Shown in pieces: positions 58,499-62,491 of a DNA stretch of 64,000 nt. Position 1 is the first letter of the stretch. Each line of letters opens with the position of its first letter. The position numbers and the translations under genes were made by a program. The DNA lies in assembly GCF_000768315.1 (NCBI RefSeq), contig NZ_AQQX01000004.1, positions 124,001-188,000 of the forward strand. Direction: 5' to 3'. The notes below the pieces were generated by a model, which saw only the letters and a list, made by a program, of their open reading frames with translations, had not been told where the DNA came from and did not search any database. This stretch comes from Pseudooceanicola atlanticus. Lineage in GTDB: Bacteria; Pseudomonadota; Alphaproteobacteria; Rhodobacterales; Rhodobacteraceae.

Positions 58499-59110
58499 AT
58501 GCAAGTTGCCTACCTCACACTCCACACCGCGCCCAACCGTGCCAGTGATCTTGCCAGCGCGGTCTCGGACCTGGGGCGGCAGCCTATCGTAACCGCCGGG
58601 TTCGTGCCGCAGATCGGGGACAGCATCAATCGGCTCTACCTGCTGCTGCGCGCAACCACGGCGGCGGAAATCGACGCGCAAGTCTCTGAAATCATGGCTC
58701 TCTCCGACGTGACGCAATCCGGTCTCCACGCGCTGTCACCGGTGCAAGAACGCGCCCTGACCCTGTTGAAGGCGGACAGCGCCATGTACACCAACCGCTG
58801 GTTTCATGTCCGAGCCGACGGGGCGGCGGCGTTCGAAGCCGATACCCAGTCCGCCTGGGACGCGTTCGAAAGCGGCACTGAGTCCGGTGTTGTCGGCCTG
58901 TGGAAGAAAGCGGAATTGGACGGAGTCGTCAGCTATCTTCTGATCGCACGCTACGCCGATTTCGCCACGTGGGAGCAGTCGAGGTTCTGGAACCGGCCCG
59001 CCGCGGAACAAAGTGACGACTGGGTCGAGAAATTCCGCCGCCGTCGTGAGAAAATGGTAGATTCCTCTGTCATTGCAATGCGTTGCGCCATGGTGACGGG
59101 CACGGTCTAG
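58499..59110 (+). CDS. Hypothetical protein, possible NIPSNAP-like fold
   Basis: A 203-residue soluble protein without signal or membrane segment. The pattern RWFHVRADGAAAFEADTQSAWDAFE, VVGLWKKAEL and SYLLIARYADFATWEQSRFW resembles two repeats of a small alpha-beta barrel (NIPSNAP or antibiotic-monooxygenase type), but no catalytic residue can be named. Its TAG stop and the stop of the opposing cyclase gene share a single CTAG at 59107-59110, an unusually tight convergent junction. Its own promoter must lie in the 134-base gap facing the FAH-family gene. Confidence 0.68.
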   Translation: MQVAYLTLHTAPNRASDLASAVSDLGRQPIVTAGFVPQIGDSINRLYLLLRATTAAEIDAQVSEIMALSDVTQSGLHALSPVQERALTLLKADSAMYTNRWFHVRADGAAAFEADTQSAWDAFESGTESGVVGLWKKAELDGVVSYLLIARYADFATWEQSRFWNRPAAEQSDDWVEKFRRRREKMVDSSVIAMRCAMVTGTV

Positions 59111-60117
59111 CGGCCTTGCGCCAGAACCTTCCTGTCCTCCGCCCGGTGAAACCGATGCTGCGCGCGCCCGGCATGTTTGGCGTCATAGAGCGCTACATCC
59201 GCATCGGCCAGCATCACCTCGGCCCGCGGATTGGCGTAGTCGGTGGAGAGCGTGGTGCCGAGAGAGGCCGAGATATGGCAGGGCTGCCCCTGGAAAATGA
59301 TGGGCTGTTCCAGCCGGTCGATCAGGCGGCGAGCCAATTCCTCGATCCGGGTGCGATCGCATAGGGCATGGAAAATAAGGACAAATTCGTCCCCCCCTAC
59401 GCGGGCGACAATGTCGTCGCCGCGGGTTTCCTCGACCATGATACGCGCGACGGTTTCGAGCACATGATCGCCCGCCGCATGGCCCATCGTGTCGTTGACC
59501 GTCTTGAAATAGTCGAGGTCGAGATGCATCAGTGCGAATTCCTGCCCCGCATCGATCAATCTGTCCAATACGTGATCCAGCGCACGACGGTTCTTCAACC
59601 CGGTCAGCGTGTCGGTAAATGCCTGTTCTTCCGCGGCAATCTTGGCGATCTGCAACTGGCGGGTCAGCTTGCGAGAGGCCTCCATCGCGGCGGATTTCGC
59701 CTCTACCAGGAAAAGCATTTCCACTGTCGGGTCCGTCGCCGCGAAATCGGCATTGGTCAGCGCGTAGTCGCGCACCGCATCCAGGATCGACAGCCCGAAG
59801 GACAGGTTCAGCAGCGCGCCCCCTGCCCCCCAGGGCACAAGAACCCCCTGCATATCCGTGCGGGGATTGTCGCGCATCCGCAGCCGCAGGCGCGCCTTCT
59901 GGCCATTGGCGGCGCGCAGGTCCTTCATCGTGGCGATGTGGCGCGGATGGGTCATCTGGAACAGTTCAAGAAACCGTTGGCCCGACAATGACTTGTGCGG
60001 CCAGAGCTTTTGCAGCGTCGGGCCGGTATGGCGGATATGGCCAGTCGCATCGACAAGGCAATGCATCGGGCAAAGCACATCCAGCGCGGCCAGGACATCG
60101 GGGTCAGAAAGGCTCAT
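59107..60117 (-). CDS. Diguanylate cyclase with HNOBA-like sensor domain
   Basis: A 336-residue GGDEF protein. Residues about 10-165 resemble the HNOBA (H-NOX-associated) domain: CPMHCLVDATGHIRHTGPTLQKLWP, a PAS-like core, LNLSFGLSILDAVRDYALTNADFAATDPTVEMLFLVE. A helical linker follows, then a GGDEF domain (about 180-320) with FTDTLTGLKNRRALDHVL, LDLDYFKTVNDTMGH and an intact GGDEF motif near 255-259. The upstream RGDD forms the RxxD product-inhibition site. The enzyme should make cyclic di-GMP. It is coupled by ATGA to the upstream H-NOX-like gene, as are other H-NOX/cyclase pairs. Confidence 0.92.
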   Translation of the reverse strand: MSLSDPDVLAALDVLCPMHCLVDATGHIRHTGPTLQKLWPHKSLSGQRFLELFQMTHPRHIATMKDLRAANGQKARLRLRMRDNPRTDMQGVLVPWGAGGALLNLSFGLSILDAVRDYALTNADFAATDPTVEMLFLVEAKSAAMEASRKLTRQLQIAKIAAEEQAFTDTLTGLKNRRALDHVLDRLIDAGQEFALMHLDLDYFKTVNDTMGHAAGDHVLETVARIMVEETRGDDIVARVGGDEFVLIFHALCDRTRIEELARRLIDRLEQPIIFQGQPCHISASLGTTLSTDYANPRAEVMLADADVALYDAKHAGRAQHRFHRAEDRKVLAQGR

Positions 60118-60713
60118 CCGCTGCGCGCCCCCAATTCGAACCGGCGGCCTTCGGCAAAGGCGGCTTCGACGAGGGTGATCTCGATCTCTTCCCGGCCCTG
60201 GGTCACGCCGCGGTGGTCGAGCATGACCAGCGCCCCGTAGTCGTCCGCCATGGCACGCAGGATGCCGACCATGACATGGCCAAAGCCCGGCCCGATCCCC
60301 ATCCGGGCGGAATCGACGCTGAGCACAAAACGGCCATCCGCCTGGGCCCGCAATTCCAGCTGCGGCAGGATCAGATCCGACACGGCCAGTTGCGCACGCC
60401 CCGGCAGGTCGTCGAGAGAATGCAGGAAATCCTCGTAACAGATACCGGCGAAGCGCAGGAGGCGGCGTAGCGCCTCAACATTCGGGTCGGAGACGAGGTA
60501 AGTCCCCAGATCCTCAAGCAAAACGGCGCGCGGCTTGACCAGTTCGACAGATATCGCATCAAGCACGGCAACGGTGATCTTGTCCTCGTAGATCAACATC
60601 GCCTCGAAATCCGGGAAGGCCAGGCCTGCACGACGCACCACGGCCTGCCAGATATCCGGCCCGTAAGTGTCCCGCACGAAACACTGGATCGCCCTGTTCA
60701 TCAGACCGTGCAT
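60114..60713 (-). CDS. H-NOX-like protein lacking the haem-ligating histidine
   Basis: A 199-residue protein with the H-NOX (haem nitric oxide/oxygen binding) fold pattern: MHGLMNRAIQCFVRDTYGPDIWQAVVRRAGL at the N-terminus, FLHSLDDLPG near 97-105, and VMVGILRAMADDY with ITLVEA near the end. In sGC and bacterial H-NOX the proximal haem His stands in LDALHDHL; here the aligned residue is Pro104 (LDDLPGRA). The YxSxR motif that holds the haem propionates reads VDSAR (133-137), with Val for Tyr. The conserved Pro at about 117 is kept. The nearest His (98) is six residues away, so canonical haem binding seems lost. The start at MHGLMN fits the family and has AGGCAGGA upstream. Its stop overlaps the cyclase start by ATGA. 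Confidence 0.85.
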   Translation of the reverse strand: MHGLMNRAIQCFVRDTYGPDIWQAVVRRAGLAFPDFEAMLIYEDKITVAVLDAISVELVKPRAVLLEDLGTYLVSDPNVEALRRLLRFAGICYEDFLHSLDDLPGRAQLAVSDLILPQLELRAQADGRFVLSVDSARMGIGPGFGHVMVGILRAMADDYGALVMLDHRGVTQGREEIEITLVEAAFAEGRRFELGARSG

Positions 60714-60824
60714 GTGGTCCTGCCTCATCCTTCTGTTGCGGGGATGATGGCGGCAGGGATTTAAGATTGACCGAACATACTCAATTGTCACGAAATTGCG
60801 CGCCCCGGCCTTTCGGACAGGCGG

Positions 60825-62384
60825 TCAGAAATCGGTGGGCGCGCCGCCCTCGGCCTTGCGGCGTTCGGTGAATTCGGTCAGCGCGGCAAGGTTCGCATCG
60901 GGCATCGGTGGCGGCGTGAATTCCTCCATGATGGCCTTGAACATGACGTGGGCACGTTCGGCCGTCCACATGCCGCCCTTGGCCTGCCAGCCCTCGAAAT
61001 TCTGCCATTCACTGACCGATGGCTGCCAGAAGGCAGTGGCGAACCTGTCCTGCGTGTGCTGGATGCCGAAGAAATGTCCGTTCTGGCGCACCTCCGCCAT
61101 CGCTTCGAAGGCCAGGTCGCCCGGCTCCGTCCGCCAGAGACTGGGGTCGAAATAGCGTTGGATTTGGCTCAACACCTCGCAATCCATCACGAATTTCTCG
61201 GGCGAGGCGATCAGCCCGCCCTCCAGCCAGCCGGCCGCGTGGTAGATCAGGTGGGTGCCCGACTGCACCCCGGCCCAGAGCGAATTCGAGGTCTCCCACA
61301 TCGCCTGCCCGTCCGGCACGTTGGCCGCACAGGCGCCCGAAGACCGCATGGGCAGACCGTAGAACCGGCACATCTGGCCGGTGATCTGCGTGGCGCGCAT
61401 GTATTCGGGCGTGCCGAAGGCCGGCGCGCCGGATTTCATGTCCACGTTGGAGGTGAAAGTGCCGAACACGCAGGGTGTTCCGGGCCGGACATACTGGGCA
61501 AGCGCAATCGCCGACAGGCCTTCGGCGAGCGATTGCGCCACGGCCCCGACCATGGTGACGGGCGCCATGGCCCCGGCCAGGGTAAAGGGCGACACGATCA
61601 GCGCCTGCCCGCGCCGTGCCATCCGCATCCATCCGTCCAGCATCGGGTAATCGTGCTTGAGCGGCGAGGTGGAGTTGATGTTGGTGAACATGTGCGGGCT
61701 GGCGCGGAACTCGTCCTCCGTCAGGCCGGCGGCGAGGCGCACCATCTCCATCCCGTCCTCGATCCGCTCGGTGCCGAGCGCATAGGCATGGGGCACCTTG
61801 TCGGTCAGCGTCAGCTTGTCATAGACCGCGTCGAGATGGCGGATCGACGGGTGCAGATCGACGGGTTCAACCGGGTAGCCACCGATGAAGTGGATGCAGT
61901 TGAAGTATTGGGAAAGCCTGAGGAAGTCGGCGTAGTGCGTGCGCTGGCCGGGGATTTTCCGCCCCAGTTCAAGATCCCAGTAATTGGGCGGAGAGGACAC
62001 GTTGCCGAACAGCACGTGATTGCCGCCCACCCTGACCTGATGCGCCGGGTTGCGCGGGGTCATGGTGAATTCGGACGGCGCGTGGGACAGCATCTCCATC
62101 ACGAAGTCGCGGCCCATATAGACGATCTCTCCGTCCACACGGCAGCCGGCTTCGGCCAGGATCCGACAGGCTTCGGGGTTCAGGAAGGCGACACCGATCT
62201 CTTCCAGCACGCGCATGGCAGTGTCGTGGATCGCCTCGATCCCCTCCTGCGGCATGGGCTCGGTGGGGCGGTCGGGGTTGACCGGAACGTGCCAGGGGGC
62301 CTGCGTGACAATTGCGGGTCCACGACGCGCCGCATGCCCGGCCCGTCCGCCGCTGCGCCGCTTTTTCTTGAGCTCAACATCCAT
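60825..62384 (-). CDS. MttB family (non-pyrrolysine) methyltransferase
   Basis: A 519-residue member of the trimethylamine methyltransferase superfamily without an in-frame amber codon, so not a pyrrolysine enzyme. Recognisable parts are IEAIHDTAMRVLEEIGVAFLNPEA near the start, NHVLFGNVSSPPNYWDLELGRKIPG, FTNINSTSPLKHDYPMLDGWMRMARRGQALIVSPFTLAGAMAPVTM and FYGLPMRSSGACA. Relatives demethylate glycine betaine or other quaternary amines and pass the methyl group to a corrinoid protein; no corrinoid protein gene lies beside it. The start at MDVELKKK has GGAGGGTCAGGC just before it. It precedes the H-NOX-like gene on the same strand with a 111-base gap. Confidence 0.9.
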   Translation of the reverse strand: MDVELKKKRRSGGRAGHAARRGPAIVTQAPWHVPVNPDRPTEPMPQEGIEAIHDTAMRVLEEIGVAFLNPEACRILAEAGCRVDGEIVYMGRDFVMEMLSHAPSEFTMTPRNPAHQVRVGGNHVLFGNVSSPPNYWDLELGRKIPGQRTHYADFLRLSQYFNCIHFIGGYPVEPVDLHPSIRHLDAVYDKLTLTDKVPHAYALGTERIEDGMEMVRLAAGLTEDEFRASPHMFTNINSTSPLKHDYPMLDGWMRMARRGQALIVSPFTLAGAMAPVTMVGAVAQSLAEGLSAIALAQYVRPGTPCVFGTFTSNVDMKSGAPAFGTPEYMRATQITGQMCRFYGLPMRSSGACAANVPDGQAMWETSNSLWAGVQSGTHLIYHAAGWLEGGLIASPEKFVMDCEVLSQIQRYFDPSLWRTEPGDLAFEAMAEVRQNGHFFGIQHTQDRFATAFWQPSVSEWQNFEGWQAKGGMWTAERAHVMFKAIMEEFTPPPMPDANLAALTEFTERRKAEGGAPTDF

Positions 62385-62491
62385 GCCTGACCCTCCGGTT
62401 GGATCAAGCAAACGCGCTTCGCCGTCGCCGCTCTGGCCGTTTTGCGACACGATCCGTCGGTTTTGACCCGCGCGGGGGTGGGAATTTCGCC

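Follow-up and report, generated by a model that had tools for sequence, protein, structure and literature searches.

Proteins of the kind encoded in the stretch of DNA analyzed here have already been described, in papers that are cited by PMC accession and from excerpts. Lee-Lopez and Yukl (2022; PMC8738867) named a branch of H-NOX proteins "Group 5", in which fewer than 10% of members keep the haem-ligating His and most carry Pro; the excerpted text also notes the lack of a conserved Cys and acknowledges the signal of the group as an open question. With reference to Iyer 2003 and Plate and Marletta 2013, Kumar and Spiro (2017; PMC5588039) had remarked that the H-NOX proteins of Paracoccus denitrificans and Rhodobacter sphaeroides are both without the His that is conserved elsewhere, and that the P. 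denitrificans gene has an overlap with a gene for a GGDEF protein. The P. denitrificans hnoX mutant underproduces biofilm, from which these authors read H-NOX as inhibiting DgcA, and they assumed gating by NO (PMC5588039); c-di-GMP could not be measured in this organism (PMC12582929). In Dinoroseobacter shibae, which has one H-NOX gene (PMC6473078), the protein is given in reviews and a later paper as a haem-based sensor of NO and an inhibitor of Dgc1 (PMC8846402, Table 4; PMC7232146).

The window, a stretch of 64,000 nucleotides from Pseudooceanicola atlanticus (contig NZ_AQQX01000004.1), carries on its minus strand a gene, hnoX (60114..60713), for a Group 5 H-NOX-like protein of 199 amino acids. 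Its ATG start opens an M-H-G sequence conserved in the clade and aligns with Met1 of the Nostoc protein Alr2278, a solved H-NOX. The product matched the Pfam family HNOB (PF07700) over residues 2-161 (E 1.8e-18, 67.4 bits against a cut-off of 25.5) and Alr2278 in a pairwise alignment (E about 6e-17), and the H-NOX-like identity given in the first-pass annotation is thus upheld. In the Alr2278 alignment, the axial His of the Nostoc LDNLHARV motif (His105) corresponds to Pro104 in LDDLPGRA (codon CCG, 60402..60404, minus strand), while YQSTR corresponds to VDSAR, with Val133 (GTC, 60315..60317, minus strand) at the position of the Tyr and with Ser135 and Arg137 unchanged. Both replacements had been reported from the sequence, and both were confirmed: the protein lacks the axial His of haem-based NO/O2 sensors, and its YxSxR propionate clamp has Ser and Arg but no Tyr. 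The annotation went further, calling the protein haem-less and its branch possibly undescribed. The missing His stands, but an absence of haem goes past the evidence, and the branch fits the excerpted description of Group 5 (PMC8738867), its missing His having been noted already in PMC5588039. The window protein is almost certainly a clear H-NOX of the Group 5 clade.

We also surveyed the family. An HNOB match was present in 296 of 394 Rhodobacteraceae genomes, sampled at nearly one genome per genus, and 288 of the 394 matched the window H-NOX at E <= 0.001, a few of them weakly, via a canonical H-NOX. In a class-level sample of 337 genomes, eight matched the clade profile: the source genome, three with clade members, one with a canonical-like relative from the same family, and three that belong to other families. 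The last three all had canonical-like scores, and the two with full alignments (L209 and L210) keep the His and YxSxR. Our clade set holds 155 members besides the window protein, or 149 distinct sequences with it included, which came from three sources: 29 closest to the window protein, 46 chosen by hand from the family match lists, and 80 from a ranking against the D. shibae protein, in which the search pattern allowed either Pro or His as the axial residue. Because this sample is not random, the residue tallies are counts, not frequencies. A Group 5 hnoX with an axial His and an in-frame stop (L115, G271:C24) was excluded from all of them.

The annotation had proposed a survey of homologues for the same Pro/Val pair. 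At the axial position we counted Pro in 105 of the 149 members, His in 20, Ser in 8, Gln in 4, Ala in 3, Asn and Arg in 2 each, and Glu, Asp, Lys, Gly, and Val in 1 each; 24 members thus carry neither Pro nor His. Among 75 intact rows of the clade sample, nine had the axial His. Since Pro recurs in 105 distinct members, the window protein included, Pro104 is not a product of chance or sequencing error. The YxSxR Tyr was missing from 148 of the 149 and present in 1, whereas the Ser was found in 33, the Arg in 17, and the two together in only 4, which makes the Ser and Arg of the window VDSAR atypical. The entropy of the axial column ranked 92 of 198, near the median, and the column is therefore not unusually variable. 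Canonical H-NOX proteins of the same family (43 sequences) have the axial His in 42, the YxSxR Tyr in 43, and the Ser in 42; their Arg fell mostly in gaps of the joint alignment, and the 24 canonical rows used instead all read YxSxR. One canonical-type protein (L081, G086:C4), whose genome additionally encodes a Group 5 protein (L097), has Gln at the axial His but an unaltered YxSxR, and is a separate loss of the haem ligand.

The clade also agrees with Group 5 in its other traits. Pro prevails at the axial site, and the 20 His members make up 13% of what is a biased sample, against the figure of less than 10% in PMC8738867. Cys reaches more than 30% in just two columns (64% and 45%), and the positions of Nostoc Gly71 and Gly147, which we infer to be the hinge glycines, are Gly in 149 of 149 members.

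The haem-bending Pro117 was likewise found in all 149 members. Eleven Nostoc tunnel and pocket positions, among them Met144, which we take to be a pocket position, were hydrophobic in at least 96% of the members lacking the axial His, and relaxed selection on the cavity was thus not seen. The other ten are Trp74 and nine of the ten tunnel residues listed in PMC7356049, where Trp74 is also named; the tenth listed residue, Thr48, a polar one in Nostoc, is Thr in most clade members as well. Several residues are near-invariant and specific to the clade (R84, L85, R87, A110, A156, D157, and Y159), and His2 (codon 2, 60708-60710), which none of the 43 canonical proteins has, occurs in 145 of the 149 in the clade. 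These eight may form an interface with the cyclase. Occlusion of the pocket by an N-terminal extension was considered and rejected: the start coincides with Nostoc Met1, and in 117 of 148 relatives the open stretch ahead of the start is shorter than 26 codons.

His98 had been named in the annotation as a residue that might serve as the axial ligand instead. Its distribution is not that of a substitute, as it was present in 15 of the 20 axial-His members and in 87 of the 129 others (p 0.61) and is not enriched where the axial His is missing. In plain counts, several residues vary with the axial His, such as Trp135 (12/20 versus 12/129) and Ser8 (18/20 versus 36/129); independent-pair tests on the tree for the covarying residues were non-significant, with too few pairs to reach significance.

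The partner gene, dgc (59107..60117, minus strand), encodes a diguanylate cyclase of 336 amino acids with an HNOBA-like N terminus and a GGDEF domain (E 6.6e-40); its start overlaps the hnoX stop as ATGA at 60114-60117. The HNOBA match, over residues 12-72, is marginal (24.0 bits against a cut-off of 23.4). Both the GGDEF active-site motif (residues 241-245; 59383..59397, minus strand) and the RxxD inhibitory-site motif, here RGDD (residues 232-235; 59413..59424, minus strand), are intact, so that the annotated overlap, HNOBA-like end (as a marginal match), and GGDEF site all held up. By these motifs, the product is a putative active diguanylate cyclase. The pairing is general in the clade: a cyclase lies downstream of hnoX in 147 of the 148 members besides the window protein, the sole exception (L089) being a locus cut by a contig end, and 74 of the 147 loci have the in-frame ATGA overlap. 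Across 148 partner cyclases, that of the window included, GGD is present in 148, the following E and F in 147 each, the Arg of RxxD in 146, and its last Asp in 148.

Upstream of hnoX, 48-62 bp before the start, lies a CtrA-like element, TTCG-N7-TTAA (60761..60775, minus strand), recognized by the conservation of its position and spacing in the clade; the CtrA motif is given as TTAAC-N5-GTTAAC (PMC7232146). With at most two of eight mismatches, 139 of 147 loci matched at CtrA spacing, compared to 35 expected from composition-keeping shuffles, and the element occurred irrespective of the axial residue (20/20 His, 96/103 Pro, and 23/24 other members). In a spacing control, 138 of 145 loci matched at CtrA spacing versus 43-108 of 145 at eleven other spacings. 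The first half-site is weak, usually TTnG (TTCG in the window) and not TTAA, and only 28 of the 147 loci match with at most one mismatch; the element is therefore CtrA-like, and CtrA itself is not proven. In the excerpted literature, the D. shibae HNOX protein is counted among the CtrA phosphorelay genes (PMC7232146), and R. capsulatus rcc02629, the cyclase adjoining its H-NOX homologue (PMC7232146), is reported to be CtrA-regulated (PMC9143464); the excerpt of a D. shibae CtrA-site prediction paper names dgc2, not the H-NOX gene pair. An MTTB (trimethylamine methyltransferase-like) gene (60825-62450, minus strand) ends 111 bp upstream of hnoX, with a HAD gene beyond it. Where the flanking DNA allowed the check, a same-strand MTTB frame was found upstream in 69 of 148 clade loci, mostly 70-130 bp away.

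The D. shibae protein deserves separate attention. Its genome (G035) was recognized as that of D. shibae DFL 12 by a 6-kb piece of the second contig, which matched plasmid NC_009955 at 100%. An HNOB profile search of D. shibae DFL 12 (G035) returned a single H-NOX (L062), which reads GLDDLHDRAR at the axial site and thus has the His, and C-I-W-H-R at YxSxR, where the Tyr and Ser are lost and the Arg is kept. Because L062 keeps the axial His, the direct evidence of NO sensing that we found for the clade comes from a His member. As this is the minority type, the result is not simply transferable to the Pro members.

The axial-His members fall into 14 separate groups. On an H-NOX tree built with the axial column included, the distribution of His and non-His members takes 12 changes, two of them forced by well-supported branches; on a tree of H-NOX together with the cyclase, with the axial column removed, it takes 11, of which at least five are forced in this way. 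A one-way loss of the axial His was rejected, since on both trees it fitted worse than a reversible model (lnL -64.6 versus -45.1 on the H-NOX tree and -47.8 versus -38.5 on the H-NOX and cyclase tree). The number of changes is uncertain because support is weak for nearly half of the inner branches (71/149 and 63/146, respectively). In the same family, an H-NOX with a full haem site (L002, G294:C3) adjoins an HNOBA-GGDEF-EAL protein, and this locus is likely a relative of the ancestral pair. Outside the family, L209 and L210, also with full haem sites, adjoin HNOBA-kinases. Full haem sites alongside HNOBA-like partners in these three suggest that the ancestor bound haem, and the apparent return of the His suggests that the pocket still meets haem. 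It is conceivable, if rather improbable, that the haem ligand has been lost and regained several times in one clade, on a single scaffold, with an unchanged type of cyclase partner and a cavity kept ready, the regulator alternating between an NO-gated form, as in D. shibae, and one that is ungated or gated in another way, as in the window protein.

We propose that the window protein is an H-NOX descendant in which the fold profile, the Gly hinges, the haem-bending Pro, and the hydrophobic cavity are retained along with a dedicated HNOBA-GGDEF cyclase, and that it would bind the HNOBA end of this cyclase and lower its activity. The phenotype of the P. denitrificans mutant fits an H-NOX that inhibits its cyclase. 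A Shewanella H-NOX with the axial His changed to Gly (H103G) reportedly adopts an inhibitory state. In canonical H-NOX, rupture of the Fe-His bond accompanies activation by NO (PMC8196705); since NO normally acts by breaking this bond, the Pro104 protein may reside in or near the "His-off" inhibitory state. Lacking the axial His, it could not be gated via an Fe-His bond at the usual place, and any haem that it bound would be held without this ligand. The output would depend mainly on the amount of protein made from the CtrA-like promoter and on any molecule that the cavity still holds. As a regulatory mechanism, a cyclase regulator no longer gated by the Fe-His bond and set partly by expression is a tentative reading of sequence features, to which we give slightly less than even credence. 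Taken as a whole, Group 5 identity with an ungated cyclase regulator is the best explanation that we have, and we are evenly divided as to whether it is right.

A different signal or a constitutive scaffold, as suggested in the first-pass annotation, are both possible. The apparent return of the His is easier to reconcile with a protein that responds to a ligand than with a purely constitutive one, and a simply locked protein is disfavored because relaxed selection on the cavity might then be expected and was not seen. The lack of decay in the cavity, together with the apparent return of the His, also keeps open the binding of haem by Pro members.

The protein might still be a haem-based NO sensor, its cavity holding haem through a non-His or an exogenous ligand and NO switching the cyclase. 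It has its clade, kind of partner, and hydrophobic cavity in common with the D. shibae H-NOX, which lacks the YxSxR Tyr and Ser as well, so that the whole clamp is not needed; this same protein, however, keeps the axial His. The source genome carries the nitrite reductase NirK, and nirS/nirK was present in 20 of the 58 non-His genomes examined (out of 129), compared to 11 of the 20 His genomes (p 0.12; 19/58 and p 0.11 when one fragment-based case is dropped), so denitrification is rejected as what divides His from non-His genomes. His2, nearly universal in the clade and absent from the 43 canonical proteins, is a possible candidate ligand. Of the residues that could ligate iron, however, none is almost invariant where the axial His is missing and rare where it is present, the fractions in non-His and His members being, respectively, 0.98 and 0.95 for His2, 0.80 and 0.60 for His76, 0.67 and 0.75 for His98, and 0.66 and 0.50 for Cys133; independent-pair tests of six residues were non-significant, again with too few pairs for significance. 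On balance, we regard a haem-based NO sensor as doubtful. The source genome also encodes one FIST-domain protein (L212, G000:C43:114933-115520). NosP, the other NO sensor, has this domain (PMC8846402), and the NosP-like protein could be the haem NO sensor of the genome.

It is unlikely that the cavity instead binds another small molecule as the signal, such as a different tetrapyrrole, a lipid, or a metabolite. The cavity has stayed hydrophobic while the axial His and the YxSxR Tyr were lost in most members, and R84, L85, R87, A110, A156, D157, and Y159 could belong to such a site; these residues could equally be a cyclase interface, no candidate molecule has come forward, and the apparent return of the His suggests that haem still fits. 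That hnoX is a decaying gene without function, as the in-frame stop of L115 might hint, is very improbable given that 288 of 394 family genomes match it with no internal stop among the matches listed, that 16 positions are invariant over 66 sequences, and that the partner and promoter element are conserved. Redox sensing through Cys and zinc, by which the haem-free Vibrio cholerae H-NOX can signal in vitro (PMC7108781), is close to negligible, as the clade has no conserved Cys set for a three-Cys zinc site, the window protein has Val at the first of the two Cys-rich columns, and the excerpt of PMC8738867 likewise reports no conserved Cys in Group 5.

Returning to the ungated cyclase regulator, its interest extends beyond this locus because Group 5 is apparently the most frequent kind of H-NOX in Rhodobacteraceae, judged by the share of sampled genomes that match, a few of them weakly via canonical proteins. 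A direct test of the axial residue is offered by naturally occurring His and Pro proteins, which share their type of partner and promoter. They also carry a warning, in that the D. shibae NO-sensing result stems from the His minority. In the literature searched, we did not find this position of D. shibae stated, and the original D. shibae paper may state the contrast; nor did we find there the clade-wide absence of the YxSxR Tyr or a recurrent exchange at the axial position. The branch itself is already named in print, and what is added here are the clade counts, the loss of the Tyr, the retention of the cyclase and of a hydrophobic cavity, the D. shibae contrast, and the residue exchange.

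Compared with known systems, the window protein shares with canonical H-NOX (Nostoc Alr2278 and the 43 family paralogues) the fold profile, the haem-bending Pro, the hinge Gly residues, and the hydrophobic distal pocket, but has neither the axial His nor the YxSxR Tyr that 42 and 43 of these paralogues, respectively, possess. The pseudo-H-NOX of sGC alpha, as described in the excerpt of PMC8196705, resembles it in keeping the H-NOX fold as a cyclase partner, has no haem, and in the human protein lacks the His; there, an N-terminal extension fills the pocket, whereas the window protein starts at the canonical Met and has no such extension. With D. shibae H-NOX/Dgc1 (Bedrunka 2018, via PMC7232146 and PMC8846402), it has in common the clade, the kind of partner, the lost Tyr and kept Arg, and the CtrA-like upstream site; it differs in carrying Pro instead of the axial His and in keeping the YxSxR Ser that D. 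shibae has lost. The closest likeness is to Group 5 itself with P. denitrificans HnoX/DgcA, which, in the excerpted descriptions, share Pro for the proximal His, the Gly hinges, the lack of a conserved Cys, and an overlapping GGDEF gene. The MTTB and HAD genes that adjoin the window hnoX both appear among the abbreviations of the neighborhood figure in PMC8738867, which pools all five groups. The sole difference from Group 5 that we found is that the window protein keeps the Ser and Arg of YxSxR, as only 4 of the 149 clade members do.
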